A DNA stretch of 64,000 nt. It comes from Tsukamurella conjunctivitidis. Lineage in GTDB: Bacteria > Actinomycetota > Actinomycetes > Mycobacteriales > Mycobacteriaceae. Shown piece after piece: positions 9,701-51,386 of the stretch; position 1 is the stretch's first letter; every line of letters starts with the position of its first letter. Below the pieces are notes generated by a model, which was not told where the DNA came from, searched no databases, and was given only the letters and a program-made list of their open reading frames with translations. Where the stretch lies: contig NZ_VIGX01000008.1 of the NCBI RefSeq assembly GCF_007858475.1, positions 62,001-126,000 on the forward strand, written 5' to 3'. A program made the position numbers and the translations under genes.

Positions 9701-12700
9701 TCACCGGCGAGGACGGCGCGCTCGCCGCGTCGGCGCGTGTGCTCCTGCAGAAGTTGGGGCTGGAGCAGGAGCAGGGCGGCCTGCCCTCGCTCGACGACGA
9801 GTCGGAGCGGCTCGCCGCGCTGATCGCCACGGAGCTCGGCGACGACTGGACGAGCGCGGTCGCGCCGGCCTTCGACGCCAACAAGGCCGTCCTCATCGAC
9901 GACCGCTGGGCCAGCGCCCGCGAGGACCTGCTCCGCGTGTGGAACATGGACCCGTCGACCTTCCCGACCTACAGCAAGCACATCCTGGAGACCGCCAAGG
10001 GCGCCGGGCCGGTGCTCGTGAACCAGGCGCGCTGGTGGGAGAAGAAGGCGACCGCCGCTGGTCGGCCGGAGCACGCGCGGGCGTACGCCTTCCTGGCCGG
10101 GCTCGCCGAGTCCACGCCGGAGCCGGGCGTCTACGCGGGTGAGGTGGCCGTGGTCACCGGTGCCTCCGCAGGATCGATCGCGGCGGCCGTCGCCGCGCGC
10201 CTGCTCGCGGGCGGCGCGACGGTGATCGCGACGACCAGCCGGCTGGACGACAAGCGGCTCGACTTCTTCAAGGAGCTGTACCGCACCAGCGCCCGGACGG
10301 ACGCCGCGCTGTGGGTCGTGCCCGCCAACATGGCGAGTTACGCCGACGTCGACGCGCTGGTCGAGTGGATCGGGGAGCGCCAGGCCGAGACGGTGGGTCC
10401 GTACACCATGGTCCACAAGGAGGCCCTGGTCCCGACGATGCTGTTCCCGTTCGCGGCGCCCCGCGTCTCGGGCGACATGTCCGACGCCGGCCCGCGCGCC
10501 GAGCTGGAGATGAAGATCCTGCTGTGGTCGGTGGAGCGGCTCATCGCCGGCCTCGCCGCGATCGGCAAGGACGTGGACCTGGCCTCGCGGCTGCACGTCG
10601 TGCTCCCGGGTTCCCCCAACCGCGGCATGTTCGGCGGCGACGGCGCGTACGGCGAGTCGAAGGCCTCGCTGGACGCCCTCGTCACCCGCTGGAACGCCGA
10701 GAAGTCCTGGTCCGAGCGCGTCACCCTGGCCCACGCCATCATCGGCTGGGTCCGCGGCACCGGCCTCATGGGCGGCAACGACCCGCTGGTCGAGGCCGTC
10801 GAGGCGGCGGGCGTGCGCACCTGGTCGACGTTCGAGATGGCCGACAAGCTGCTCGCCAACGCCAGCGCCGAGGCGCGGGAGCGCGCCGCGACGGCGCCGC
10901 TGTTCGACGACCTCACCGGCGGCCTGGGCGGCGTCAGCCTGGACATGAAGGCGCTCGCCGAGCAGGCCATGGAGGCCCGCCTGGCGGAGGCCGCCGAGGG
11001 CGAGGACGAGGGCACCATCGCGGCCCTCCCCGGCGCCCCGGTCGCCACCCTGCGGGACCCGGACTGGGGCTCGGTCGAGGCCCGGCCCGAGGACATGGTC
11101 GTCATCGTCGGCGCCGGCGAGGTCGGCCCGTACGGCAGCTCGCGCACCCGGTTCGAGATGGAGGTCGACGAGCGGCTCTCCGCCGCGGGTGTCGCCGAGC
11201 TCGCCTGGGTGACCGGCATGATCACCTGGGAGAACGACCCCGAGCCGGGCTGGTACGACGCCGAGTCGGGCGACCTGGTGCCCGAGGCCGAGCTGGCCGA
11301 CAAGTACCACGACGCGGTCGTGGAGCGCTGCGGCATCCGCGAGTTCAGCGACGACGGCGACATCGTCGATCAGTCGGCCCCGCTGCTGGTGTCGGTCTTC
11401 CTGCCCGAGGACATGTCCTTCGTGGTGGCGAACGAGGCCGAGGCGCGCGCCTTCTCGGACGCCGATCCGGAGAACACCGTCGCGGTGCCGATGGAGTCGG
11501 GCGAGTGGCGGGTCACCCGCAAGGCCGGTACCGAGATCCGCGTGCCGCGCCGCACCAAGCTGCTGCGCAGCGTGGGCGGCCAGGTGCCGGACGGCTTCGA
11601 TCCCACGCACTGGGGCATCACGCCCGAGATGATGGAGTCGGTCGACCGCCTGGCGCTGTGGAACCTGGTCGCCACCGTCGACGCGTTCATCTCCGCGGGC
11701 TTCGAGCCGGCCGAACTGATGGAGTACGTGCATCCCTCGCACGTCGCCAACACGCAGGGCACGGGCATGGGCGGCATGAGCTCCATGCGCGACCTCTTCA
11801 TCAACACCCTGCTGGGCGAGCCGAACCAGAACGACATCCTGCAGGAGGCCCTGCCGAACGTCGTCGCCGCGCACGTCGTGCAGAGCTACGTGGGCAGCTA
11901 CGGCGCGATGATCCACCCGGTCGCGGCCTGCGCCACGGCGGCGGTCTCGGTCGAGGAGGGCGTCGACAAGATCAAGGTCGGCAAGGCCCTTTTCGCGGTG
12001 ACCGGCGGCTTCGACGACCTGTCGATCGAGGGCATCACCGGCTTCGGCATGATGCAGGCCACCGCGGACAGCGAGAAGATGCTGGCCAAGGGCATCAGCC
12101 CGCGCCGCTTCTCCCGCGCCAACGATCGGCGTCGCGGCGGCTTCGTCGAGTCCAACGGCGGCGGTACCGTGCTGCTGGCCCGCGGCGATATCGCCGCGAA
12201 GATGGGCCTCCCGGTCCTCGGCGTGGTGGCGTGGGCGCAGAGCTTCGGCGACGGCGTGCACACCTCCATCCCGGCTCCCGGCATGGGCGCGCTGTCCGTG
12301 GCCGCCGGCGGCCCCGAGGCCCCGATGGCCCGCAGCCTGCGGCAGCTCGGTGTCGAGGCGGACGACGTCTCGATCATCAGCAAGCACGACACGTCGACCA
12401 ACGCGAACGACCCGAACGAGGCGAACCTGCACGAGCGGATCGCCGCGTCGATCGGCCGCTCCGAGGGCGCCCCGATGTTCGTCGTCTCGCAGAAGTCGCT
12501 GACCGGTCACGCGAAGGGCGGCGCCGCCGCCTTCCAGCTGATCGGCATGTGCCAGATGCTCAACCAGCAGGTGCTCCCGCCCAACCGGAGTCTCGACTGC
12601 GTGGACGACGAGATGCGCAAGTTCCCGCACCTCGTGTGGCTGCGCGAGAGCCATCGGTTCGACGGCGACTTCCGCCCCAAGGCGGGCCTGCTCACGTCGC

Positions 12701-13005
12701 TGGGCTTCGGCCACGTCTCGGGCCTCATCGCGGTCGTGCACCGTGACGCCTTCCTCGCCTCCCTCGACGAGGCGGCGCGGGCGGAGTACCTGGCGACGGC
12801 GCGCGAGCGCGAGGTCGCGGGTGCCCGCGCAGTGCTCTCCGCGATGTGCGGCCGCTCGGGCCTGTACCGCAAGCCGCCGGCGGGCCGGCGCTTCGGCGCC
12901 GACGCCACGTCGGAGGCCACGGACCGTAGCGAGGCGGCTCTGCTGCTCGACGAGGCCCTGCGGCTCGGACCCGACGGCACGTACTGCGCCGACGGATGCC
13001 GATAG
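3709..13005 (+). CDS. fas: Type I fatty acid synthase (multidomain FAS-I)
   Basis: A 3098-residue cytosolic megasynthase that makes C16-C26 acyl-CoAs, the precursors for phospholipids and the alpha branch of mycolic acids. Domain order is as in mycobacterial FAS-I: acyltransferase (GHSQGQ, Ser175), enoyl reductase (LAGMTPTTVDP near 450), hot-dog dehydratase (GDHNPIHTS, His1257), malonyl/palmitoyl transferase (GHSVGEYNAL, Ser1464), an Ala/Pro-rich linker (~1753-1791), ACP (DGVSSRRNQ, phosphopantetheine Ser at 1832 or 1833), ketoreductase (VVTGASAGSIAA from 2147) and ketosynthase (Cys2741, His2893, His2934). Length is close to the M. tuberculosis enzyme (3069). The ATG at 3709 has GAGGAG four bases upstream; in-frame upstream codons are not conserved. 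acpS follows after 17 bases, fitting activation of this ACP. Confidence 0.98.
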   Translation: MTVDDFVTANARTAKGPRNNDALVDRLAAGEQYALTFGGQGGPWLPGLVSLLEQTGLADDPEYRDLFDGFVARADSVLEPVRAELLRAQALTFDPMRWRDASIAASEAETTDEDEEQAAPAATGPASRRLLAPQVDGAVFSVPGVLFAQLVALYGLEAQGLDPWDVPPVAAIGHSQGQLAVSAFASRGNEGDLLAIARLIGAAGRVVARRKGLVALGGATPMMAVTGVRQDKLETLLADFTATVSFDACGPVLAVRNNRNSFVLTGTPKLLAGFREFCESVAETEEEQRKEKLTGGAAFAPKFEDVAVDIGFHHPALADAVGLVTEWAERCGLNADTAARLAAAVLVEPVDWVAEVEGAIGKGARWLIDLGPEDIATKLSAAPARGRGVGLVPATTLRGARNLFSPGGVPELPLAWSEFSPRLVTLPDGRTVLSTRFTELTGRSPILLAGMTPTTVDPGIVAAAANAGHWAELAGGGQVTEPIFADNVAKLTALLEPGRAAQFNSLFLDPYLWKLQLGGKRIVQKARAAGAPLDGVIITAGIPELEEATALVEELTEAGMRHVAFKPGTVEQIRQVARIAAEVPQFPVIVHVEGGKAGGHHSWEDLDELLLVTYAELRDRNNVVLAVGGGIGTPALAAEYLSGEWSRKYGAPAMPVDGILVGTAAMATLEATTSDDVKRLLAEIPGTPDWIGAGHAGGGMASGRSQLGADIHEIDNTASACGRLLDEVAGDGDAVAARRDEIIAAMAGTAKPFFGDADAMTYAQWLERYLELSVGTREQVAAAVDSTLFGDYGWLDITHQDRFLSMLHRAEARLAAEDRGPIETAFDGVAATDDAYGALDQLLQRYPEAASTRLHPADVPFFVSLCRTPGKPVNFVPVVDKDVRRWWRSDSLWQAHSPRYSADEVCIIPGPEAVAGITRVDEPVGDLLNRFEAELVRRRIGAGEVAQAVAGRRVVPGVESVPLARALAATNVLWAGRLVHSPIARLGAGSTWTVDGDSALQSGTGARLSATGPNAVVLEIPVSGTDLVIPIQVPDSCADGGVPVVELGEASEAMSKLVALAAAGDLPAVADGAATIDFEFRAEDAADHAAITADSLPVGLSALYGDEQLAVPDAFVGLCWPASFAVVGAATTAEGRPVVEGMLDLVHLDHAIELATNPTPGAYRATARLEDVTATDIGTVVTVGIDVRAPGAETPAVVMTERFAIRGRTGEAELADPQPAGGARGETATETPRKRVRQAVVNAPQDMSGFAAVSGDHNPIHTSQVAASLAGLPGPIVHGMWLSAAAQQVASASNGDVMHRKIRGWTTRFLGMVLPGDEVQFTVERVGIDRGGELLEVTARVGDDLVMAASAVAFPAVTAYVFPGQGIQGKGMGLSQRSRSKAAREVWDAADAHTRENLGFSILAVVRDNPLSIRANGTVYSHPDGVLYLTEFTQVAMATVACAQLAELTEIGARVDDPIIAGHSVGEYNALASAGVLPLGTILETVFHRGRIMQQLVPRDEQGRSPYAMAALRPELFDVEDAEIADWVEGNLEGADEFAEIVNLNLRGAQYVVVGNQAGLDALEKAIAERTGSPKAFQLVPGIDIPFHSSVLRDGVPEFAARLQELVPAEFDYTKLVGKYLPNLVARPFELTTDFALSILDVVPSEPVRALVADWERAAADPMATARTLLIELLAWQFASPVRWIETQDQLLIDTDHGGLGVERFIEVGLASAPTLANLASRTLALASYQRAAATVLNAERDAAKVFATDEDVPEDEGGDAPAEDAAPAAAPAAAAPAAAPVASAPSGGPRPADLGFDAADATRAMIAIWTKMRPDQLEKTDTIETLCDGVSSRRNQLLLDLGSELNLGAIDGAAEADLPTLAGTVTKLARTYKPLGPVLSETVGNQLRKLLGSTGKRPNYITEYVTGTWELGPGWAQHTVLALATGTREGASVRGGDLATLLDGPVSNAAALDALIDRAVAEVGAAQGVPVGKPSAGGGGGGATVDAAALAEFTSAITGEDGALAASARVLLQKLGLEQEQGGLPSLDDESERLAALIATELGDDWTSAVAPAFDANKAVLIDDRWASAREDLLRVWNMDPSTFPTYSKHILETAKGAGPVLVNQARWWEKKATAAGRPEHARAYAFLAGLAESTPEPGVYAGEVAVVTGASAGSIAAAVAARLLAGGATVIATTSRLDDKRLDFFKELYRTSARTDAALWVVPANMASYADVDALVEWIGERQAETVGPYTMVHKEALVPTMLFPFAAPRVSGDMSDAGPRAELEMKILLWSVERLIAGLAAIGKDVDLASRLHVVLPGSPNRGMFGGDGAYGESKASLDALVTRWNAEKSWSERVTLAHAIIGWVRGTGLMGGNDPLVEAVEAAGVRTWSTFEMADKLLANASAEARERAATAPLFDDLTGGLGGVSLDMKALAEQAMEARLAEAAEGEDEGTIAALPGAPVATLRDPDWGSVEARPEDMVVIVGAGEVGPYGSSRTRFEMEVDERLSAAGVAELAWVTGMITWENDPEPGWYDAESGDLVPEAELADKYHDAVVERCGIREFSDDGDIVDQSAPLLVSVFLPEDMSFVVANEAEARAFSDADPENTVAVPMESGEWRVTRKAGTEIRVPRRTKLLRSVGGQVPDGFDPTHWGITPEMMESVDRLALWNLVATVDAFISAGFEPAELMEYVHPSHVANTQGTGMGGMSSMRDLFINTLLGEPNQNDILQEALPNVVAAHVVQSYVGSYGAMIHPVAACATAAVSVEEGVDKIKVGKALFAVTGGFDDLSIEGITGFGMMQATADSEKMLAKGISPRRFSRANDRRRGGFVESNGGGTVLLARGDIAAKMGLPVLGVVAWAQSFGDGVHTSIPAPGMGALSVAAGGPEAPMARSLRQLGVEADDVSIISKHDTSTNANDPNEANLHERIAASIGRSEGAPMFVVSQKSLTGHAKGGAAAFQLIGMCQMLNQQVLPPNRSLDCVDDEMRKFPHLVWLRESHRFDGDFRPKAGLLTSLGFGHVSGLIAVVHRDAFLASLDEAARAEYLATAREREVAGARAVLSAMCGRSGLYRKPPAGRRFGADATSEATDRSEAALLLDEALRLGPDGTYCADGCR

Positions 13006-13022
13006 CCCGATAGGCTTCCGCC

Positions 13023-13448
13023 ATGGCCGTGGTGGGAGTCGGGATCGACGTGGTGCACGTGCCCGGGTTCGCGGAGCAACTCGCGCAGCCCGGGACCACG
13101 ATGCTCTCGTCGTTCAGTCCCGCCGAACGACGGGACGCCGCGGGGGACGTACGCTCTTTGGCCGCCCGCTGGGCGGCCAAAGAGGCCGTCTTCAAGGCGT
13201 TCTCGTCGGGGTTCTACGCGCAGCGGCCGGCCGAGAAGGAGGTCGGCGCGCGGGAGGTGGAGGTCGTCTCCGATGCATGGGGGCGGCCGGCGGTACGGGT
13301 GTACGGCCGCATCGCGGCCGACCTCGGGCCGGATGCGACGATCCATGTGTCACTCACCCACGACGGTGACACCGCGGCGGCGTTCGCGGTGATCGAGAGA
13401 ACTGAAGAGCGCGACGGTCCGAACGGACTGCAGTCGTGTACCGGATAG
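13023..13448 (+). CDS. acpS: Holo-ACP synthase (4'-phosphopantetheinyl transferase)
   Basis: A 141-residue enzyme that transfers 4'-phosphopantetheine from CoA to the ACP serine, here presumably that of the adjacent FAS-I. The Mg2+-binding Asp is in GVGIDVV (Asp9) and Glu54 is in WAAKEAVFKAF, both hallmark AcpS motifs. HVSLTHDGDTAAAFAV closes the fold. It lies 17 bases after fas on the same strand, as in mycobacteria, so it is probably co-transcribed. The next gene's GTG start is 20 bases after the stop. A perfect hairpin sits within the sequence coding the WAAKEA motif (listed separately). Confidence 0.95.
   Translation: MAVVGVGIDVVHVPGFAEQLAQPGTTMLSSFSPAERRDAAGDVRSLAARWAAKEAVFKAFSSGFYAQRPAEKEVGAREVEVVSDAWGRPAVRVYGRIAADLGPDATIHVSLTHDGDTAAAFAVIERTEERDGPNGLQSCTG
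13154..13184 (+). promoter_or_regulatory. Perfect 14-bp hairpin within acpS coding sequence
   Basis: Arms 13154-13167 and 13171-13184 are exact inverted copies with a 3-base loop. They fall on the codons for LAARWAAKEA. The stem is long and has no U-tract. It could attenuate read-through between fas-acpS and the carboxylase gene, or be a by-product of the codons used. Confidence 0.35.
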
Positions 13449-13468
13449 AGCCGAAAGGGAACAAGCGA

Positions 13469-16400
13469 GTGTTCAGCCGAATCGCCATCGTGAACCGAGG
13501 TGAGGCCGCGATGCGCCTCATCCATGCGGTCCGCGACCTGGCCGCCGAGACCGGGCAGCAGATCGAGACCGTCGCCCTCTACACCGACGTCGACCGCACT
13601 GCGACCTTCGTCCGCGAGGCCGACATCGCCTACGACCTGGGTCCCGCCGCGGCGCGGCCGTACCTCAACTACGAGCTGCTCGGCAAAGCCCTGCAGGAGA
13701 CCGGCGCCGACGCGGCGTGGGTCGGCTGGGGGTTCGTCGCCGAGGATCCGGTCTTCGCCGAGAAGTGCGCCGAGGTCGGCGTCGTCTTCGTGGGCCCGAG
13801 CCCCGAGGCCATGCGCCAGCTGGGCGACAAGATCGGCGCCAAGCTCATCGCCGAGGAGGTCGGCGTCCCCGTCGCGCCCTGGAGCCGCGGTCCGGTGGAG
13901 ACGCTGGAGGAGGCCAAGGACAAGGCCAAGGACATCGGCTACCCGCTGATGCTCAAGGCGACCGCCGGCGGCGGTGGCCGCGGCATCCGCATGGTCGCCT
14001 CCGACGCGGATCTCGAGGAGGCCTACCTCCGTACCCGCGAGGAGGCCGAGCGCGCCTTCGGCAGCGGCGTCGTCTTCCTCGAGCGCCTCGTCACCGGCGC
14101 TCGCCATGTCGAGGTCCAGGTGATCTCCGACGGCGAGACCGCGTGGGCCCTCGGCGTCCGCGACTGCTCGGTGCAGCGCCGCAACCAGAAGGTCATCGAG
14201 GAGTCGGCGTCGCCCGTGCTCGGGGCCGAGCAGGTGCAGCGGCTCAAGGAGTCCGCGGAGCGCCTGGCGATCAAGGTCGGCTATCGCGGCGCCGCCACCG
14301 TCGAGTTCCTGTACCACCCGGGCGACGACCTGCTGGCCTTCCTCGAGGTGAACACCCGCCTGCAGGTGGAGCACCCGATCACCGAGGTCACCAACGACTT
14401 CGATCTGGTCCGCGCGCAGCTGCACGTCGCCTCGGGCGGCAAGCTCGACGGCACCCGTCCCGTCGAGCGGGGGCACGCCATCGAGGCGCGTCTCAACGCC
14501 GAGGACCCGGATCGCGACTTCGCGCCCGCCCCGGGCCGCATCGCGCTGCTGGACCTGCCTGCGGGCCCCGGTATCCGCATCGACACCGGTGTCTCGCAGG
14601 GCGACACCATCCCCGCCGACTTCGACTCCATGATCGCCAAGGTCATCGCGTACGGCAGCGATCGCGAGCAGGCCCTCGGCCGCCTCCGCCGCGCCATGAA
14701 CGAGACCCGCGTGATCATCGAGGGCGGCGCCACCAACAAGAGCTTCGTGCTGGATCTGCTGAACCAGCCCGAGGTCATCGACGGCAGCGCCGACACCGGC
14801 TGGATCGACCGCGTGCGCGGCGAGGGCCGCCTGGTGGCCGACCGGCACACCTCCGTCGCGCTGGCGTCCGCGGCCATCGACGCCTACGAGGACGAGGAGC
14901 GGGCCGAGCTGACCCGCCTGCTCACCACCGCGTCGGGCGGCCGACCGCAGGTGCAGCACGAGAGCGGCACCCCGCTGGACTTCAAGCTCCGCGGCGCGAG
15001 CTACCGCGTACGGGTCGCCCGGACCGGCGCGCACACCTTCCGGCTCGTCATCGACACCGGCGCGGAGACCCGCACCGCGGACGTCGATCTGGAGCGTTTC
15101 GACAACCACACCGGCCAGGCCGTGGTCAACGGCGTCCGGTACCGCCTCACCACCGGCACCCACGGTCCCGTGCACGTGGTCGACGTGGACGGTGTCACCC
15201 ACCGCGTCAGCCGCGACGAGGGCGGCGTGGTCCGTTCGCCCGCGCCGGCACTCGTGGTCGCCGTGCCGCTGGCCGTCGGAGACGAGGTCGAGGCCGGTGC
15301 GCCGATCCTCGTACTCGAGTCGATGAAGATGGAGACGGTGCTCCGGGCGCCGTTCTCCGCGCGTCTCAAGGAGTGCGCCGTCACCGTCGGCAGTCAGGTG
15401 GAGGCCGGCGCGGCACTGCTGCGCCTGGAGCCCCTGGGCGACGGCGGCGACGAGGCCGCCGGTTCCGCGGCGGGCCCGATCGACCTGCCCGCCGAACCCG
15501 CCAAGGTCGGCGCCGTCGAGCGCGCCGCCGCCGGCCGTGAGGCGCTGCGCAGCCAGCTGCTCGGCTTCGACGTCGACCCGGCGGACGAGAGCCGTCTGCT
15601 CGACGAGTACCTCGTGGACCGCGTCGCCGCCGAACTCGAGGGCGCCGCTCCGGCGGCCGCCGAGCTCGCACTGGCGAGCGTCTTCGCCGATCTCGCCGAG
15701 CTGGGCCTGCGCCGCTCGGTCGGCGGCGACGACGAGGTGCACAGCCCCCGCGAGCACTTCCACACCTACCTGCGCAGCCTCGACGCCGACCGGGCGGGCC
15801 TGCCCGACTCGTACCGCGCCAAGCTCGCCGCCGCGCTCGGCCACTACGGTGTCGCCGAGCTCGACCGCACGCCGGACCTCGAGTCGGCCGTCTTCCGCGT
15901 CTTCCTGGCGCAGCAGCGGCCCAAGGTCGGTCTCCGCGTCATCACGGCGCTGCTGCGCAAGTGGCTCCGCGAGCCGGCACCGTCGGTCGAGGACGGCGGC
16001 GACGCCCGCGCCGTGCTCGAGCGCCTCATGGACGCGACGCAGTCCCGGTACCCCGTGATCGCCGACCTCGCCCGCGGCGTGGTCTTCGCCTGGTTCGGGC
16101 AGCCGCTGCTGCGCGGCAACCGCGAGGGCGTGTACTCGGCGGTCCGCGCGCATCTCACGTACCTCGACCAGAACCCCACCGCCGGTGACCGTTCCGAGCG
16201 CATCGCGGAGATGGTGCGCAGCACCGAGCCGCTGGTCCTGCTCCTGGGTGAGCGACTCGCGGGGGAGCACCCGACCGACAACGCGGTCATGCTCGAGGTC
16301 CTGACCCGCCGCTACTACGGCAACAAGGGCCTCACCGAGGTGCGTACGCAGGACGTGGCCGGCACGGAGTGGGTCGTCGCGGCGCGCGACGGCGCGCTGC

Positions 16401-37446: not shown

Positions 37447-38382
37447 TCACACGGCGCTCTCGCACAGGGACTGCGCCATCGCCTCCCACTCGCCGCGGCC
37501 CGCGGGGTTCACCGCTCCGAACTGCGTCAACATCGCAGAACACGACCCTCCTGCGTCGTACAGCTCGATCGCCGAGACCGAGCCGGCCGGGCCGGGGGAG
37601 CGCACCACTGCGCAGCCCTCCACGCGGGCGAGGTCGATGTCGACCGCGGCATCGGCGAAGCCCGTGAGCAGGCGCGGGCCCTCCCGCAGCGCGGCGTGGA
37701 TCTCGCCGCGGCAGGCCTGCGCCACTCCCTCGGAGGCCACGGCGAAGTCGACCGGGATGCCGCTGTCGCAGAGGAACTCGAAGATGCGCGGTACCCAGTC
37801 GGGCGTGATCGGGCAGTAGCGTTCGCTCCCCTCGGCGCAGAGCCCGCGGAGTCGTTCGCGGCCGCCGGTCAGGATCGGGTCGATGCTCGCCGCCGCCCCG
37901 TCGGGGCTCCCGGACGGGGGAGGTTCGGGCGCGGTCCCGAAGTACAGAGCGCGATGCGGGTCGGACGGCGCCAGGTGGCCGAGCGCGCGCACGATCATCC
38001 GATCGGACTCTCCGGTCACGAACGCGCGGTGCAGCGCCGCGCCGCGGCGGTCGGTGAGGCCGACCATGCTGGCATCGGCGGGTCCGCCCGGAGTGTCGTC
38101 GTCCGTGAGGGCGCCGACGACACGATCGGGCGAGAAGCGCAGCGCGATACGACCGGGAGTCACGGTGAAGGGCTCGCCGCACTGGGTGGGACGGTCGTAC
38201 CTTGCCTCGTGGGCGAGGGTCGCGACCATGGACTCGGTCACGCCGATCGCGACGTCGAGCAGGGGGAAGGCGCCCGCCACCTGGGTGGCCGATGCCCCGT
38301 CGACGCTGACGCAGCCGCGTGCGCGCTGCAGGGGGCACCGCCCCCGGTCGCGGCCGCAGCCGGGGCAGGAGCGCGGCCGCAT
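37447..38382 (-). CDS. Diverged HemS/ChuX-like protein with N-terminal cysteine cluster
   Basis: A 311-residue protein whose two halves look like the paired repeats of HemS/HmuS haem-utilisation proteins: VATLAHEARYD ... VGLTDRRGAALHRAFVTG, and later GIPVDFAVASEGVAQACRGEI ... VSAIELYDAGGSCSAMLTQFG. The haem-contacting NLHL segment is replaced by DID, so haem binding is doubtful. Residues 6-24 hold CPGC, then CPL and a fourth Cys, a possible Zn or Fe-S site not usual in HemS. The ATG shares one base with the TGA of the diflavin reductase, so it is translationally coupled as third gene of the gltB operon. Assignment rests on motif resemblance only. Confidence 0.5.
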   Translation of the reverse strand: MRPRSCPGCGRDRGRCPLQRARGCVSVDGASATQVAGAFPLLDVAIGVTESMVATLAHEARYDRPTQCGEPFTVTPGRIALRFSPDRVVGALTDDDTPGGPADASMVGLTDRRGAALHRAFVTGESDRMIVRALGHLAPSDPHRALYFGTAPEPPPSGSPDGAAASIDPILTGGRERLRGLCAEGSERYCPITPDWVPRIFEFLCDSGIPVDFAVASEGVAQACRGEIHAALREGPRLLTGFADAAVDIDLARVEGCAVVRSPGPAGSVSAIELYDAGGSCSAMLTQFGAVNPAGRGEWEAMAQSLCESAV

Positions 38383-40163
38383 CAGTAGACGTCCCGCACG
38401 TAGCGCTTCTCCCGTTTGAGTGTCGCGACGTACTCGTCGGCGTCGTCGGCCCCGCGGCCCCGCTGGGAGGCGATCACCTCCCGCAGCGCTCGGTCCACGT
38501 CCTTCGCCATGCGCGAGGCGTCACCGCACACGTAGAAGTAGCCGCCGTCCTCGAGCCAGCCGTACAGCTCGGCGGACGCCTCGAGCATCCGCGTCTGGAC
38601 GTAGACCTTCTCGGCCTGATCGCGCGAGAACGCCAGGTCCAGGCGGTGCAGCACCCCGGAGGCGGTGAACTCGGCGAGCTCGTCGGCGTAGATGAAATCG
38701 GTCGCGCGGTGCTGGTCGCCGAAGAGCAGCCAGTTGCGGCCCGGCGCCGAGGACGCCGCGCGTTCGTGGAGGAAGGCGCGGAACGGGGCGATACCGGTGC
38801 CGGGGCCGACCATGACCACGGGACGGTCGGGATCGGCCGGCACGCGGAAGGCCGCGTTCGGTTGGAGATGGATCCCGATCGGGTCCTGGTCGGTCGCGCG
38901 GTCGGCCAGGAAGGTCGAGCACACGCCACGGTGCTCGCGACCGGAGCCCCGGCCGTACCGCACCGCCGCGACGGTGAGGTGGATGCGGTCGGGGCTCGTC
39001 AGCGGGCTCGACGAGATGGAGTAGGCCCGCGGCTGGAGCGGGCGGAACAGCTCGGCCAGTTCCGCGGGATCGAGACGTGCACCCTCGCATTCGTGCAGGA
39101 GGTCGAGGACGTCCCGGCCCCACAGCCACGCGTCCAACGTTTCCCGTTCGCCGCGTGCCAGCACGGCGGCGAGGTCGGACCGGGGAGATCGCTCGGCGAG
39201 CGTCTTGAGCAGGTCCTTCGACGGTGTCGTGATCTCCCATTCCGTGGTGAGCCGGTTGGACAGCGGAGCGCCGTCGGCGTCCGCATCCGGCGCTGCGCCG
39301 AGCGCCGTGAGCACGGCGTCCACCAGGGCCGGATCGTTGCGCGGGACCACGTTCAGGGCGTCGCCCGCGGCGTACTCGATACCGCTGTCGCCCAGGTCGA
39401 ACTCGAAGTGGCGGATCTCCTTGGCGCTCCCTGCGGCGGAGAGGAGGCGGTTCTCCACGAGCCGGGAGGGGAAGGGGTTCTTCTTGTTCCATCGCGATCG
39501 GGGCTTCGACGGTGCCGCGGGCGCGCTGGGAACCGGTACCGCCGCGGCGTCGTCGGGATCGAGGTGCGCCGACTGCGCGCGCAGCCGCGCGACGACGTCC
39601 GTCAGCCAGGCCGTTGCCGGTTCCTCGAAGTCCACATCGCAGTCGACCCGCGGTGCGAGCCGCGAGGCACCGAGCTGTTCGAGCCGGGTGTCGAGGATCT
39701 GTCCGGCACGGCAGAAGTCCTCGTATCCGCTGTCGCCCAGCGCGAGGACCGAGAACTCGAGGTGCTCGAGTCGTGGCGCGGTGTCGGAGGACAGTGCCTC
39801 CCAGAAGAGCTCGGCGTTGTCGGGCATCTCGCCCTCGCCGTACGTCGACGTGACCACCAGGAGGTGCGTCGCCCCGGTCAGCCGGTCCGGATCGGCGTCG
39901 TCGAGGGCGGCGACGTCCGCGCCGAGGCCGCTCTCCCGCAGGAGCGCGACCAGTCGGTCCGCGAGGTCCTCGCTGTTGCCGGTCTGGGTGCCGTAGAGCA
40001 CGGTGGCGTGCAGGGTCGCCGCGTTCGCGGTCTCGGCCGCATCGGCCTGCGCCGCGGCCAGGCCGGCGAGGAAGCCCGAGAGCCACGCTCGCTGGTCTCC
40101 TGTGAAGACGTCGATGAGGGCGGACGTATCCGCCTCGGGCAGAGCGTAGGTGGGAGTGCTCAT
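38382..40163 (-). CDS. Diflavin NADPH reductase (CysJ/cytochrome P450 reductase-like)
   Basis: A 593-residue flavoprotein with the CysJ layout. A flavodoxin-like FMN domain (~53-190) has LYGTQTGNSEDLA and STYGEGEMPDNAE. The FAD-binding domain has RAYSISSSP and GVCSTFLADR. The NADPH domain has GPGTGIAPFRAFLHER, FGDQHRATDFIY and YVCGDASRMAKDVDRAL. The C-terminus ends in the aromatic VRDVY typical for flavin shielding. These proteins pass NADPH electrons to sulphite reductase, P450 or haem oxygenase. No sulphite reductase lies here; its partners by overlap are the glutamate synthase (4 bases upstream) and the HemS-like protein (1 base downstream). See findings. Confidence 0.88.
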   Translation of the reverse strand: MSTPTYALPEADTSALIDVFTGDQRAWLSGFLAGLAAAQADAAETANAATLHATVLYGTQTGNSEDLADRLVALLRESGLGADVAALDDADPDRLTGATHLLVVTSTYGEGEMPDNAELFWEALSSDTAPRLEHLEFSVLALGDSGYEDFCRAGQILDTRLEQLGASRLAPRVDCDVDFEEPATAWLTDVVARLRAQSAHLDPDDAAAVPVPSAPAAPSKPRSRWNKKNPFPSRLVENRLLSAAGSAKEIRHFEFDLGDSGIEYAAGDALNVVPRNDPALVDAVLTALGAAPDADADGAPLSNRLTTEWEITTPSKDLLKTLAERSPRSDLAAVLARGERETLDAWLWGRDVLDLLHECEGARLDPAELAELFRPLQPRAYSISSSPLTSPDRIHLTVAAVRYGRGSGREHRGVCSTFLADRATDQDPIGIHLQPNAAFRVPADPDRPVVMVGPGTGIAPFRAFLHERAASSAPGRNWLLFGDQHRATDFIYADELAEFTASGVLHRLDLAFSRDQAEKVYVQTRMLEASAELYGWLEDGGYFYVCGDASRMAKDVDRALREVIASQRGRGADDADEYVATLKREKRYVRDVY

Positions 40164-43100
40164 GCCAGCGTCTCCTTCGCGAACCGCACCAGGTCGGGCA
40201 TCGCGCCGTCGACCAGCATGGCGTTGACCGTCGCGCCGTCGAGCACCGCGGCGTTGCGGGCCCGGTGGTGCAGGATCCAGCCGTACGTGGCGGGTGCGTC
40301 CATGCTCAGCACGTTCCGTTCCTCCAGCGACGTGGTGTAGTCGCCGAGTCGTTTGGTGGCGATCAGCGCCGCGAGTTCGGCGTCGTCGTAGGCCTCGAGC
40401 CGACCGCGTAGGTATTTGGTGAGGCGCTGCCGGACTGCGAAGTCCTCGGTGAGCACCAGGTTCCGGGCGCGCGCCGAGACCCGCGGATCGTCGTGTCCCG
40501 TTGCGCCCGAGACGCGCTCGGCGGCGACCTCCTGCGCCAGCGAGAGCACCGTGAACGAGGAGAGCAGGTCGAAGGCGTGCGCCGAGCGGGTGTCGCCGAA
40601 CCGCGGCGCGGTTCCGCCGCCGACGGGGGCGCCCGCGCGCAGGGAACGTTTGAACGCACGCAGGCGGTCCGCCGCGACCGAACCCGCGAGCTCGTCGAGG
40701 AGTTCCTTGCGGCCGTGCGCCGCCCAGATCCGGTCGGCGTCCTGGTAGTGCAACAGCGCGACCGGGGTTCCCACGACGAGGTGTTCGCGGGTCGTCGACC
40801 ACGCCGCGAGGAGTTCGGCGGCGAGCGGCGATCCGGTCGCCTCGGCGTGCCAGGTCAGCATGGCGTGCGCGGCCGCCTCGTGGAAGCGCGGAGTCTCCGC
40901 GCCGACGACCGGGCTCAGGTGCAGCGAGTCGCTCGCGGCCCGCGCGACGGTGCCGGACGGGTCGTACTGGTAGACGAATCCGCCGCTCATGCCGTTGCCC
41001 AGGCCCTTGCCGAATCCGCCGAGGTTGAGCACCGCGCCGCCGGTCATGTACTCGCAGCAGTATTCGCCGACGCCCTCGACCACAGCGGTCGCGCCCGAGT
41101 TCCGGACGGCGAACCGGTCGCCGGCCTCTCCTTGCACGAAGGTGCGGCCGCCGGTGGCTCCGAACAGTGCGAAGTTGCCGATCAGGACGTTCGCGCCGGG
41201 CTCGGCTCCGCCGCCGCCGGGCGATCGCACCACGATGCGGCCGCCGCACTGGCTCTTCCCGACTCCGTCGTTGGCGGTGCCGGTGTGCTGCAGGTCCATG
41301 CCGTCGGTGCAGAACACGCCGAAGGACTGCCCGGCGCTGCCGTGCGTGCGGATGCGGACGGCACCGTCGGCGAGGAAGCGACGTCCGCGCTCGTCGGTGA
41401 GCACCGCGGGGTGCCCCGCCGGGATCGCCTCGCGATCGAACGCGCCCCGCGGGTCGGCGTCCGGGTGGTTGAGCGCGCGTTCCAGGTCGATCGCGAGCTG
41501 GCCACCCACCGACTTGTTCGGGTTCGACAGGGCCACGTCGGAGACGGAGACGGCCTCGGCGTCACCGGAGAACAGCCGCTCCCGGACCTCGGCCAGGAGC
41601 CGGTCGTCCACCGCGTAGTCCTTCTCCAGGTACACCGGTTCGGCGACGGTGCGCGGTGCGGGCGCGTGCAGCATCGCCCGCACGTCCAGATCGCCCACTG
41701 CTGCCGGATGTTCCAGGAGCTGAAGGAGATCGGTGCGGCCGCGGGCCTCGCGGAGCGACCGCAGTCCCAGGCGCGCCAGGATCGCGCGGACGTCGTGCGC
41801 CACGTTCAGCAGGTACTGCGCCAGCGCGCGCGGGTCACCGTCGAAGGCCTCGGGGTTGGTGGTGAGCCCGGCCGGACACTTGAGGTTGCAGTTCTTGGCC
41901 ATGACGCACTTGAGCATCATCAGGGCGGTGGTACCGAACTCGAACGAGTCGCCGCCGAGGAGCGCCGAGACCACGACGTCACCGCCGGTCTGGTGCGCGC
42001 CCGAGCAGCGGAGGGTCACCTTCTCGCGCAGGCCGTTCGCGACCAGCGCCTGATGCACCTCGGCCACGCCGATCTCCGCGGAACGACCGGCGTACTTGAG
42101 GCTGGTGACGGCCGCCGCACCGGTACCGCCGGTGTTGCCGGCCACGTTGATGACGTCGGCGCCCGCCTTGGCCACACCCACAGCGATGGTCCCGATCCCC
42201 TCGGACGACACCAGCTTCACGATCACCCGCACACGAGCGGCCTTGCAGTCGTGGATGAGCTGCGCCAGATCCTCAATCGAGTAGGTGTCGTGATGCGGTG
42301 GGGGAGAGATCAGCTCGATCCCGGGGGTGCCGCCGCGGGCCGCGGCGATGTCGACGGTGACCTTCGGGCCGGGCAACTGCCCGCCCTCGCCGGGCTTGGC
42401 GCCCTGGCCGATCTTGATCTCCAGCTCCTGCAGCATCGGGTCGGCGAGATACCCCGTCCAGATGCCGAAACGCCCCGACGCGAACTGCTTGATCCGCGAT
42501 CCGCGGATGGTGCCGTACCGGGTGCGGTGCTCGCCGCCCTCGCCGCAGTTCGACATGCCGCCCACCATGTTGGTGCCGTGGGCGACGGCCTCGTGCGCTG
42601 ACGCGACCAGCGCGCCGTGGCTCATCGCGCCCGATGCCAGCGTTCGGGTGATCTCGTGGGCGGGCTGCACCTCGTCGAGCCCCAACGACGGAGGAGCCGC
42701 GCCGAGCAGCGTGAGGTAGGTGTGAGCGCGCCCCGTCGCCGTGATCTCGGCTTCGGTCGCGGTCGCACGGACCGTGACCTCCTCGGGGAAGGCCGATTCC
42801 AGGAACGACGCGAATCCCGCGTACGCGGACTCCGCGTCGTTCTCGGGAGTCCCGGTGAGGTGGACGATGAACCGTCCCTCGGCCGGGGTGCTCACCGCCA
42901 ACCCGCGGGTCGGCAGGCTCGCGTTGCCGGCCAGGGAGAACCGGGCGAGTTCGCGGTGGAACTCCTGCGCCGTGGTCAGCATGGTCACATCGGCGGGGAG
43001 CGCGAGGACGTCGCGCAGCGCGGACGGCCGGCGCTCCCGCTCGACGAGGGTGGCGGCGAGGAAGTCGCGGTAGCCGTCGGTGATCTCGAACCCGTCGATC

Positions 43101-45685
43101 TGCCGCGGGAGGAGTGCCTTGAAACCGCTGTTGCGGTACGCGGCGTCGTCGAGTCCGAAGGCGTCGTCGAGGCGCGAGAGCGTGAGCAATCGCAGCGACG
43201 TGGATCCGATGCCGTCGGGTCCGGTCAGCGCGAGGGGCTCCTCGGCCATGCGGGTGAATCCGCGGACGGCGTTGATGCCGTAGGAGTGCCCGGCACCGTC
43301 CGAGCGTTCCTTGAACAGCCCGAGCAGCGGAACCTCGCGCTCCTCCGTGACGGAGACCGCGCGGTCGTGCCAGTCGCTGTTCGCCTGCGCGATGCGCGCG
43401 AAGCCGACGCCGCCGACCGGCGCGTCCAGGTGCGGGAAGTAGCGTGCCAGGACCGGATCCCGGGTGTCCAGGTAGTTCGGTTCGAAGAACTGCCCGCCGA
43501 TGTACGACTCGGCGGTGCACAGTCCCACGCGGCCCATGGTTTTCGCGAGCGACTTCTCCGCCGCCTTGCGGAACCGGTCGAAGGCGTGGTCGGTCTCGGT
43601 CAATTCCGTCGCGGGTGCCGCGGCCGAGGGGAACTTCTCCTCCGCGCGCAGCCGCGCGGAGAGCGAGTACACCGCAGACGCTCCGAACCCCAGCGCCGAC
43701 GCGATGTGGTGCGAGGACGGGAGCTGCCCGCTCTCGGCGATGAGGGACAGACGCAGGCGCAGACCGGTCTCCGTCAGGCGGACGTCGGCCGCGGCGAGCG
43801 CGAGCAGCAGCGGCAGCGGCGCCTGCTCGGACGAGACGCCGCGATCGGAGAGCACGGCGATGCCGCCCCCGTCGCGGGCGAAGGTCTCGATCCGGTCGCA
43901 CAGGTCCTCGATCGCCGTGAGCACCGCGTCGGCGTTGCCCGCGGCGTCCTCGGGGTCCGGCCGATAGAGCAGGTCGAAGTGCTGCACGGGTGTCAGTCGT
44001 TGATCCCGCAGCTTGACCATGTCCAGGTGGCCGAGGATCGGCGTTGACACCACGATCTGGGGATCGGCGTGACCGTGCTCCGAGTTGCCAAGAGCGACGC
44101 GCATGCTCATCGCATCGGCCTCGCGGATGGAGTCCAGGGGCGGGTTGGTCACCTGTGCGAAGCGCTGGGAGAAGTACTTCGCCATGCCGCCCTCGTGGTC
44201 CGACAGGGCGTTGATCGCGTTGCCGTACCCCATCGCCGAGATCCGCTCCGCGCCGTCGGCGAGCATGGGATCGAGGAGGAAGCGGAAGCTCTCCTGATTG
44301 AGGGAGTAGGCCACGTACCGGCCGTGCAGGGTGAGATCACCCGGGTACCCGAGAGTGTCGGTGTCCCTCTGGATCTCCGGGGCATCGATGTCGGACAGGT
44401 CGACCCGTGCGGCGGCGAGGAGGTCAGTGTAGTCCCGGCGCGCCGCCAGCAGGTCGAGCGCCTCGCGGGTGCGGCGGACGCGGCCGTCGCCGGCGCGATG
44501 GTCCACGTAGAGCATGCCGCCGGCCTCGATGCGACCGCGGTGGACCACCGACTCCGCGGGGAACGGAACCTGCCCGGCCTCCGACGCGACCACCACGTAG
44601 TCCTCGGTCTCGACGGTGCGCAGCGGACGGAGACCGAGCCGGTCCAGCCGGGCTCCGACCACGTCACCGTCGGAGAAGATGAGGGCGGCGGGGCCGTCGT
44701 TCTTCTCCTCGCTCAGCGAGAAGTACTCGAGCATGTCCCGCACGGGCGCGGGAACCGAGCCGTCGTTCTCCCATGCGGGTGGCATGAGCGAGACGACGGC
44801 CTCCACGAGGTCCAGCCCGTCGTCGAAGACGCGGCTCTGCAGGGACTGGTCGAGTCGGCTCGAGTCCGACTGGCCGGGCGGGCGGACGATCGTGCGCGCT
44901 TCGGCCCGCGCGACAGCGTCGTCGGCGAGGCGGTTCTTCCGGTCGGTGTTGAGCTCGCCGTTGTGGGCCATCAGCCGGAATGGCTGCGCCATCGACGGGT
45001 GCGGTTCCGTGTTGGTGGAGAACCGGGTGTGGAAGTACAGGGTGCAGACGGAGTGCCGGGGGTCGGTCAGGTCGGAGAAGTAGCGGATCACCTCGTCGGC
45101 GTTGAGCCTCCCCTTGAGCGTCTGCGTGCGCGTGCTCACCGAGAGCGGATACAGCCCGTCGAGTTCGGGGGAGCCGTAGGCGATGCTCTCGATCGCCAGG
45201 AGGGCCGCATGCGCGGCGCGATCCGACTCCTCCCGAGAATCGTTCGTGGTGAATACCCACTGCGTGATCGGCAGCTGATAGGGCAGTGCGGCGGCGCGGA
45301 TCACGGCCGGGTCGACGGGGACGTCCCGCTCTGCGATCACCTCGAAGCCGTGCTCCGCCAGTGTCGCGCGCACGACCCCGCGGGCCGATTCGCCCTGATC
45401 CGGGTCGGACGGCAGGAACAGGTTGGCGACGCCGAACCGCCCGCGCTCGAGCTGTCGGCCAGTGATCGCGCTGAAGAACTCCACGGACAGGTCCACATTG
45501 ATCCCGGCCCCGTCGCCGACGCCCTCGGCGGACATGCCGCCGCGGTGGGGGATCGCGCACAGCGCGTGCTCGCCGAAAGCGATCACGTCGTGGTGCTGCG
45601 AGCCGTCCTTGCGCGTGATGAAGCCGACGCCGCAGGCGCTCGACTCCCGGGTGGGGTCGTACAGACCGGTTCGTGGTTCGTTCAA
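40160..45685 (-). CDS. Oversized glutamate synthase large subunit (GltB-type)
   Basis: An 1841-residue protein of the glutamate synthase family, which transfers the glutamine amide to 2-oxoglutarate. The N-terminal class II amidotransferase begins at Cys18 (SACGVGF). The FMN domain holds PGEGGQLPGPK, GNTGGTGAAAVTSLKYAG and GLREKVTLRCSG. Iron-sulphur cysteines are Cys1260, Cys1266 and Cys1270; the last gap is one residue shorter than in canonical GltB. A GXGXG domain follows (~1400-1560). It is about 300 residues longer than usual, partly in a C-terminal helical extension. The start is TTG 45685. gltD is absent nearby and a diflavin reductase follows with a 4-base overlap. An iron-box-like sequence lies ~40 bases upstream. 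Confidence 0.85.
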   Translation of the reverse strand: MNEPRTGLYDPTRESSACGVGFITRKDGSQHHDVIAFGEHALCAIPHRGGMSAEGVGDGAGINVDLSVEFFSAITGRQLERGRFGVANLFLPSDPDQGESARGVVRATLAEHGFEVIAERDVPVDPAVIRAAALPYQLPITQWVFTTNDSREESDRAAHAALLAIESIAYGSPELDGLYPLSVSTRTQTLKGRLNADEVIRYFSDLTDPRHSVCTLYFHTRFSTNTEPHPSMAQPFRLMAHNGELNTDRKNRLADDAVARAEARTIVRPPGQSDSSRLDQSLQSRVFDDGLDLVEAVVSLMPPAWENDGSVPAPVRDMLEYFSLSEEKNDGPAALIFSDGDVVGARLDRLGLRPLRTVETEDYVVVASEAGQVPFPAESVVHRGRIEAGGMLYVDHRAGDGRVRRTREALDLLAARRDYTDLLAAARVDLSDIDAPEIQRDTDTLGYPGDLTLHGRYVAYSLNQESFRFLLDPMLADGAERISAMGYGNAINALSDHEGGMAKYFSQRFAQVTNPPLDSIREADAMSMRVALGNSEHGHADPQIVVSTPILGHLDMVKLRDQRLTPVQHFDLLYRPDPEDAAGNADAVLTAIEDLCDRIETFARDGGGIAVLSDRGVSSEQAPLPLLLALAAADVRLTETGLRLRLSLIAESGQLPSSHHIASALGFGASAVYSLSARLRAEEKFPSAAAPATELTETDHAFDRFRKAAEKSLAKTMGRVGLCTAESYIGGQFFEPNYLDTRDPVLARYFPHLDAPVGGVGFARIAQANSDWHDRAVSVTEEREVPLLGLFKERSDGAGHSYGINAVRGFTRMAEEPLALTGPDGIGSTSLRLLTLSRLDDAFGLDDAAYRNSGFKALLPRQIDGFEITDGYRDFLAATLVERERRPSALRDVLALPADVTMLTTAQEFHRELARFSLAGNASLPTRGLAVSTPAEGRFIVHLTGTPENDAESAYAGFASFLESAFPEEVTVRATATEAEITATGRAHTYLTLLGAAPPSLGLDEVQPAHEITRTLASGAMSHGALVASAHEAVAHGTNMVGGMSNCGEGGEHRTRYGTIRGSRIKQFASGRFGIWTGYLADPMLQELEIKIGQGAKPGEGGQLPGPKVTVDIAAARGGTPGIELISPPPHHDTYSIEDLAQLIHDCKAARVRVIVKLVSSEGIGTIAVGVAKAGADVINVAGNTGGTGAAAVTSLKYAGRSAEIGVAEVHQALVANGLREKVTLRCSGAHQTGGDVVVSALLGGDSFEFGTTALMMLKCVMAKNCNLKCPAGLTTNPEAFDGDPRALAQYLLNVAHDVRAILARLGLRSLREARGRTDLLQLLEHPAAVGDLDVRAMLHAPAPRTVAEPVYLEKDYAVDDRLLAEVRERLFSGDAEAVSVSDVALSNPNKSVGGQLAIDLERALNHPDADPRGAFDREAIPAGHPAVLTDERGRRFLADGAVRIRTHGSAGQSFGVFCTDGMDLQHTGTANDGVGKSQCGGRIVVRSPGGGGAEPGANVLIGNFALFGATGGRTFVQGEAGDRFAVRNSGATAVVEGVGEYCCEYMTGGAVLNLGGFGKGLGNGMSGGFVYQYDPSGTVARAASDSLHLSPVVGAETPRFHEAAAHAMLTWHAEATGSPLAAELLAAWSTTREHLVVGTPVALLHYQDADRIWAAHGRKELLDELAGSVAADRLRAFKRSLRAGAPVGGGTAPRFGDTRSAHAFDLLSSFTVLSLAQEVAAERVSGATGHDDPRVSARARNLVLTEDFAVRQRLTKYLRGRLEAYDDAELAALIATKRLGDYTTSLEERNVLSMDAPATYGWILHHRARNAAVLDGATVNAMLVDGAMPDLVRFAKETLA

Positions 45686-45722
45686 CGGATCACTCTCACT
45701 CGGGACGCGTACCTGAAGTGAG

Positions 45723-45741
45723 AATGGTAAGGCTAACCTTA
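45723..45741. promoter_or_regulatory. DtxR/IdeR-like iron box upstream of gltB-type operon
   Basis: The 19 bases match 15 of 19 positions of the DtxR/IdeR consensus TTAGGTTAGSCTAACCTWA, with the core GGCTAACCT intact and TAAGG/CCTTA symmetry. They are ~40 bases before the TTG start of the GltB-type gene and ~85 before the divergent membrane gene. Iron-dependent repression of the operon is inferred. Confidence 0.65.
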
Positions 45742-51367: not shown

Positions 51368-51386
51368 TTAGGTTAGCCTCGCCAAT
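51368..51386 (+). promoter_or_regulatory. Second DtxR/IdeR-like iron box
   Basis: Fifteen of 19 positions fit the DtxR/IdeR consensus. The left half TTAGGTTAGCCT is perfect and the right half is degenerate. It ends 22 bases before the DoxX-type start codon, so it would overlap the core promoter. Confidence 0.5.

Follow-up and report, generated by a model that had tools for sequence, protein, structure and literature searches.

A GltB-type glutamate synthase paired with a diflavin reductase behind an iron box in Tsukamurella conjunctivitidis, a candidate iron-sparing enzyme

Within a 64,000-nucleotide stretch of the Tsukamurella conjunctivitidis genome (contig NZ_VIGX01000008.1, positions 62,001 to 126,000; hereafter, the window), three minus-strand genes at 37447..45741 encode, in this order, a GltB-like glutamate synthase large subunit (GltB2), a CysJ-like diflavin reductase and a HemS-fold protein (Table 1). 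We analysed this operon, and in particular the pairing of GltB2 with the diflavin protein. An earlier note, made from the letters of the window, had described three overlapping, translationally coupled genes behind a DtxR/IdeR-like box and had remarked that gltD is missing beside the GltB-like gene. Both descriptions were borne out: the overlaps are 4 bases and then 1 base, and the genome's GltD (747 bits) is encoded elsewhere, directly adjoining a separate, canonical gltB.

Table 1. Features of the GltB2 operon, in window coordinates (FMN, flavin mononucleotide; FAD, flavin adenine dinucleotide; NADPH, reduced nicotinamide adenine dinucleotide phosphate; aa, amino acids)
Feature	Position	Strand	Basis or remark
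GltB2, glutamate-synthase large subunit of distinct group, 1841 aa, TTG start	40160..45685	-	Pfam domains, PDB matches
CysJ-like diflavin reductase, 593 aa; FMN flavodoxin, FAD and NADPH domains	38382..40163	-	domain search
HemS-fold protein, 311 aa, altered haem pocket	37447..38382	-	domain/fold search, alignment
IdeR/DtxR-type iron box TAAGGTTAGCCTTACCATT	45723..45741	-	37 bases upstream of the GltB2 TTG start
Cys18, predicted glutaminase nucleophile of GltB2	45632..45634	-	alignment with 2vdc
GltB2 inserted region, residues ~808-999, between central and FMN domains	42689..43264	-	alignment; prediction
GltB2 cluster motif CVMAKNCNLKC: Cys1260, Cys1266, Cys1270	41876..41908	-	alignment
GltB2 C-terminal domain, residues ~1632-1841, predicted mostly helical	40163..40792	-	alignment, prediction

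According to Pfam, the large subunit GltB2 contains a GATase_2, a central, a Glu_synthase and a GXGXG domain. It matches glutamate synthases in the PDB (best E value 1.1e-231), and its alignment with the canonical GltB of the same genome shows identical residues at 545 of 1463 positions. GltB2 retains Cys18, the motifs RFSTNT, HNGE, SDS and KPGEGGQLP and the three cluster cysteines, and the motifs of its FMN/2-oxoglutarate region are close to those of canonical GltB. In alignments, Cys18 falls on the first residue of the A. brasilense chain 2vdc; of 28 relatives aligned, 27 keep it, and the exception (locus L059) has a truncated start of the open reading frame (ORF). Its score against the NCBIfam large-subunit equivalog NF008730, 995.3 bits, falls below the cut-off of 1047. 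Judged by its sequence, GltB2 belongs to a separate glutamate-synthase group, marked by its cysteine spacing, an inserted region and a C-terminal domain. The cluster cysteines are spaced CX5CX3C, as opposed to CX5CX4C in the genome's canonical GltB, a spacing common to all 28 aligned relatives and present at 109 of 110 loci (five of these being duplicates), the remaining one, L049, being cut by a contig end. The inserted region spans 192 residues, versus 43 in the canonical protein; it measures 190-197 residues in 26 of the 28 relatives and 102 and 116 in L061 and L062, and is partly predicted to form a compact alpha/beta domain (block predicted local distance difference test score ~85-93, segment residues 171-290; the rest of the model is poor). 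The C-terminal domain, of about 210 residues, gave no convincing Pfam match. When a GltB2 profile was run against 60 genomes of the family of Sediminivirga luteola, one GltB2 scored 1047 bits, versus 235-257 bits for 46 proteins of canonical length. Methylobacillus glycogenes has GltB2 divided among four ORFs (L145, 6399-11917) and Rhizobium sp. 2MFCol3.1 among two (L144, 6414-11923); both splits may be assembly errors.

The partner of GltB2 proved constant. Two sets of loci were compiled, one of 30 from the window's family and one of the 80 best-scoring among 529 confirmed relatives in named genomes; five were in both sets, leaving 105 distinct loci, the window excluded. A diflavin gene lies directly 3' of GltB2 at all 105, and 104 pass a strict test in which a same-strand diflavin ORF covers the base 300 nucleotides past the GltB2 stop; at L086 (Arenivirga, 12246-14681) the diflavin homology runs in two frames, a broken frame that may be an assembly error. 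The pair is found in Actinomycetota, Alphaproteobacteria and Betaproteobacteria. Plasmids show the same arrangement: each of nine records holding GltB2 (four from strains of one Ketogulonicigenium species, two from Shinella, and one each from Tsukamurella, Neorhizobium and Sinorhizobium) has the diflavin gene directly downstream, and the nine best matches to the window's diflavin protein in the plasmid collection are these nine. Moreover, over 34 pairs, the distances among GltB2 proteins are correlated with those among their diflavin partners (r = 0.90; 2000 permutations gave at most 0.23), although relatedness alone also raises such a value. In the diflavin tree, a split with support of 100/99 separates the 34 GltB2-linked proteins from three NasN-type and four CysJ rows; the N. 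farcinica row was labelled NasN-type from its 1402-residue frame, its record being unannotated there. One long-branch row (from an isopropylamine cluster, length 2.23) falls among the GltB2-linked proteins, so that the labelled group needs two changes rather than one. At L045 (2522-3721) and L061 (7232-8407), the operon has additional FAD/NADPH half-reductases beside it, which measure 391-399 aa and lack a flavodoxin domain, and a canonical-type gltB is also next door to it at L045 and L073.

The diflavin protein carries the Flavodoxin_1, FAD_binding_1 and NAD_binding_1 domains. Around DQRAWLSGFLAG it has an N-terminal segment that is conserved in its GltB2-linked relatives and resembles the one in CysJ. 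Could it be an ordinary sulfite-reductase flavoprotein that happens to adjoin gltB? It passes the broader NCBIfam model PRK06214 'sulfite reductase subunit alpha' (473 versus 432 bits), four annotated plasmid records give the partner sulfite-reductase names, and NIR_SIR proteins are encoded elsewhere in the window's genome. However, its score against the cysJ equivalog TIGR01931, 603.9 bits, does not reach the cut-off of 668.15, and its constant position beside GltB2 argues for another partner; no CysI-type haemoprotein adjoins the diflavin gene at the window locus. Furthermore, of seven pair-carrying genomes tested, five (the window's included) gave a NIR_SIR match, but S. luteola and Curtobacterium pusillum, the latter a complete chromosome, gave none, so that in these two, if the genomes are complete, the diflavin protein cannot serve a sulfite reductase. 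We find this explanation hardly credible.

The operon generally comes in addition to the canonical enzyme, and its distribution is patchy: 3 of 396 genomes sampled across the phylum carry GltB2, and in the window's family 28 of 301 were positive with a C-terminal query, three more being reached via the HemS-like protein. A full-length canonical GltB is encoded in 26 of 27 named GltB2-bearing genomes, the exception being S. luteola, and in 30 of 31 such genomes of the window's family, the 31st (75% complete) having a partial match; one genome is common to both sets. GltD exceeded its cut-off in six of seven GltB2-bearing genomes tested. It is thus conceivable that GltB2 draws its electrons from canonical GltD or from ferredoxin, with the diflavin protein as an alternative or regulatory donor, and the short flavodoxin encoded as third gene at some loci (see below) would also suit such a scheme. 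S. luteola, however, possesses GltB2 and the diflavin gene, and its genome yielded neither a canonical GltB nor a GltD over the cut-off; the co-variation of the diflavin protein with GltB2 likewise speaks for the former as the donor, leaving GltD or ferredoxin a very improbable source.

In contrast to the diflavin gene, the third gene varies. The protein encoded in the window shows the HemS domain and fold over its whole length, and a HemS-like gene was found in this position at 43 of the 105 loci; at ten loci, all of genus g24, it is replaced by a short flavodoxin, and at the other 52 neither was found in these searches. The column of HemS His196, the haem-ligand histidine, holds no His in any of 39 members (six have one at the next column), and that of Phe199 holds Asp in all 39. 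P450-reductase-type donors serve haem-degrading relatives of HemS, and the earlier note had proposed, as its second hypothesis, that the diflavin protein serves the HemS-like protein in haem or ferric-chelate reduction, in which case its link to GltB2 would be incidental. The HemS fold of a gene inside an iron-boxed operon, together with an arginine (Arg82, equivalent to HemS Arg102) kept in all 39 members, lends this idea some appeal. Nevertheless, a reductase present at every locus can hardly have as its main function the service of a protein found at fewer than half, replaced in g24 and altered at both haem-pocket columns, and we consider the proposal improbable. The HemS-fold protein is probably an accessory in a minority of loci, binding a tetrapyrrole or another ligand in its changed pocket.

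We then turn to the iron box. The box upstream of GltB2 agrees with the consensus at 14 of 19 positions, and 0 of 200 dinucleotide shuffles reach this score; the best score upstream of the canonical gltB is 11 of 19. With one mismatch at most, the box core gave three distinct sites across the whole 5.07 Mb genome (the window box has one mismatch), and a reversed control gave none. The other two sites precede Peripla_BP_2 proteins of the siderophore-binding type, one of them followed by a FecCD permease. Two Fe_dep_repr_C proteins, of the IdeR/DtxR/MntR family, are also encoded, a domain that does not separate IdeR from MntR. Since the box is common to siderophore genes and a regulator of the family is encoded, we infer that the GltB2 operon is part of an IdeR/DtxR-type regulon. 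A second, weaker match to the box core, with two mismatches, lies at 51370-51383 of the window.

Box-like sites recur upstream of GltB2 in other genera. Among 29 hand-picked actinobacterial representatives, examined with 200 shuffles each, the score of the site was reached by no shuffle in 17 and by ten or fewer in 25; of four proteobacterial representatives treated likewise, one passes (L135, 1/200), probably by chance. In Rhizobiaceae, the sequence TGA-N9-TCA, which an excerpt of a published study gives as the RirA operator or IRO box (PMC6386902), is present in six of seven GltB2 upstream regions, at the putative -35 of a shared promoter; two of these six come from near relatives, and shuffles of the seven regions contain the pattern in 4-10% of cases. 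In Ketogulonicigenium vulgare (L154, 16125-23388), the trio leads on to genes for an AraC regulator and a TonB siderophore receptor and to Fhu-type ATP-binding cassette genes; the HemS-like profile matches the third gene of the trio at 9e-38. The suggestion in the earlier note of an iron-responsive nitrogen enzyme is supported as far as the box is concerned, both in its sharing with siderophore-uptake genes and in its counterparts in relatives; the response itself would be the expected consequence.

Other elements were noticed in the same upstream regions. A dyad, GTMAG-N5-CTGAC, lies past the putative -35 at L135, L144, L146, L148, L152 and L155, and with one mismatch at L153. Five of the seven Rhizobiaceae (L135, L144, L146, L148 and L155) have a leader ORF of 32-34 codons with a basic end, some 90-245 bases before GltB2, followed by a conserved AGGAGC...AGGTCRCCTGCGGCTCCGCC element; this region gave no Rfam match in the three scanned (L135, L144 and L148), and no shared fold. 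At L145 and L150 of Methylobacillus, a sigma-54-like -24/-12 site (10 of 11 specified bases) takes the place of an iron box and would point to control by nitrogen at these loci.

Taken together, these results make it probable that the operon encodes an iron-repressed second NADPH-glutamate synthase, in which GltB2 is fed by the diflavin protein and the two [4Fe-4S] clusters of GltD are spared. GltD carries one FAD besides these two clusters. According to an excerpt of a review (PMC8097209), the two [4Fe-4S] clusters of canonical GltBD reside in GltD, and the enzyme has one [3Fe-4S] cluster besides; with a diflavin protein as donor, the two in GltD would not be needed. In the proposed mechanism, the N-terminal domain of GltB2 would hydrolyse glutamine, and the ammonia would pass to 2-oxoglutarate at the FMN site, where the product would be reduced to glutamate. 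Electrons would travel from NADPH to the FAD and then the FMN of the diflavin protein, on to the single iron-sulfur cluster of GltB2 and finally to its FMN, the co-translated diflavin protein standing in for GltD in a role like that of CysJ towards sulfite reductase. When loaded with iron, IdeR would block the operon, and under iron shortage the enzyme would be made and glutamate synthesis could continue, at an estimated cost of ~3 rather than ~11 iron atoms per protomer. This is in essence the first hypothesis of the earlier note, which came through two findings that could have gone the other way: the GltD of the genome pairs with the canonical gltB, and the GltB2-diflavin linkage is kept across phyla.

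Several observations weigh against this interpretation. GltB2 retains its cluster cysteines and is therefore not iron-free, and the adjacency counts were drawn from the best-scoring, closest relatives, with Curtobacterium over-represented. In four of the 29 actinobacterial representatives, namely Arenivirga, Tessaracoccus, Pseudactinotalea and Sediminivirga, the box-like site does not exceed chance expectation, and it is weak, reached by 5-8 of 200 shuffles, in Curtobacterium, Millisia, genus g24 and Candidatus Corynebacterium faecigallinarum. No recognised iron box was found upstream of GltB2 in Azorhizobium and Methylobacillus, nor an IRO box, the sole box tested there, in Ketogulonicigenium. 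Finally, S. luteola encodes a glutamate dehydrogenase, and in 13 of the 60 genomes of its family the GltB2 profile matched nothing at 1e-50, not even a canonical GltB, so that doing without GltBD is not rare in that family.

A different function is also conceivable: GltB2 and the diflavin protein could form an amidotransferase acting on another keto acid, or on the precursor of a siderophore or other iron-stress product, rather than making bulk glutamate. The coexistence of canonical GltB in nearly all GltB2-bearing genomes examined would fit such a role, as would the extra inserted and C-terminal domains, the patchy distribution and the siderophore genes adjoining the trio in K. vulgare. On the other hand, the near-canonical motifs of the FMN/2-oxoglutarate region, the occurrence of GltB2 without canonical GltB in S. 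luteola and the fact that three of the four plasmid neighbourhoods with annotation name no biosynthetic cluster make this alternative doubtful. Returning to a diflavin-fed glutamate synthase, a bolder version, to which we give little credence, is that the GltB-diflavin unit constitutes a fourth electron-supply class that moved between phyla as an iron-sparing isozyme; here the HemS-fold protein would be a true third subunit, its pocket sensing a haem or iron-linked ligand and gating glutamate synthesis, and CX5CX3C would hold an unusual cluster.

Glutamate synthase is central to nitrogen assimilation and costly in iron, and two low-iron responses turn it down: excerpts of the respective reports state that iron limitation lowers the canonical enzyme CC3606-CC3607 in Caulobacter (PMC3751524) and that gltAB of B. 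subtilis is a target of FsrA (PMC8464778). If our interpretation holds, a replacement enzyme dedicated to low-iron conditions would amount to a second strategy, akin to that of flavodoxin for ferredoxin, and carriers may keep assimilating nitrogen when iron is short. GltD would then be replaceable by a flavin-only reductase, and the sulfite-reductase naming of the partner in the four annotated records would be corrected.

An excerpt of the review cited above (PMC8097209) lists NADPH-GltS, ferredoxin-dependent GltS (Fd-GltS), a fused NADH-GltS and archaeal domain ORFs, and includes no diflavin form. Nor did we find a diflavin-fed glutamate synthase in the open-access literature searched, in agreement with the earlier note, which knew of no such arrangement. 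Compared with GltBD, GltB2 has the same four-domain large subunit, glutaminase cysteine, FMN/2-oxoglutarate region and cluster cysteines, but its system differs in having a diflavin protein for GltD, the CX5CX3C spacing, the insert, the C-terminal domain and the iron box, and in usually being a second copy. Unlike Fd-GltS, which relies on a mobile ferredoxin, GltB2 would have a dedicated, co-encoded diflavin reductase as its donor. The third protein departs from HemS, ChuS and PhuS in having no His at the His196 column and an invariant Asp for Phe199. The diflavin protein shares with CysJ the flavodoxin-FAD-NADPH architecture and a similar N-terminal segment, whereas it partners GltB2, forms a separate branch and is only ~39% identical to Salmonella CysJ. 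Its next-best relatives in the plasmid set, after the GltB2-linked diflavins, are of the NasN type (~48% in Paraburkholderia), and Tan et al. reportedly described NasN as a diflavin nitrate reductase in 2020. In NasN, which an excerpt of a further paper likewise presents as a diflavin-containing nitrate reductase (PMC10704036), the diflavin module also serves a nitrogen-assimilation enzyme, although it is fused to the nitrate reductase, whereas that of GltB2 is a separate protein; by analogy, NasN may be seen as the nearest precedent in spirit for a diflavin-fed GltB2.

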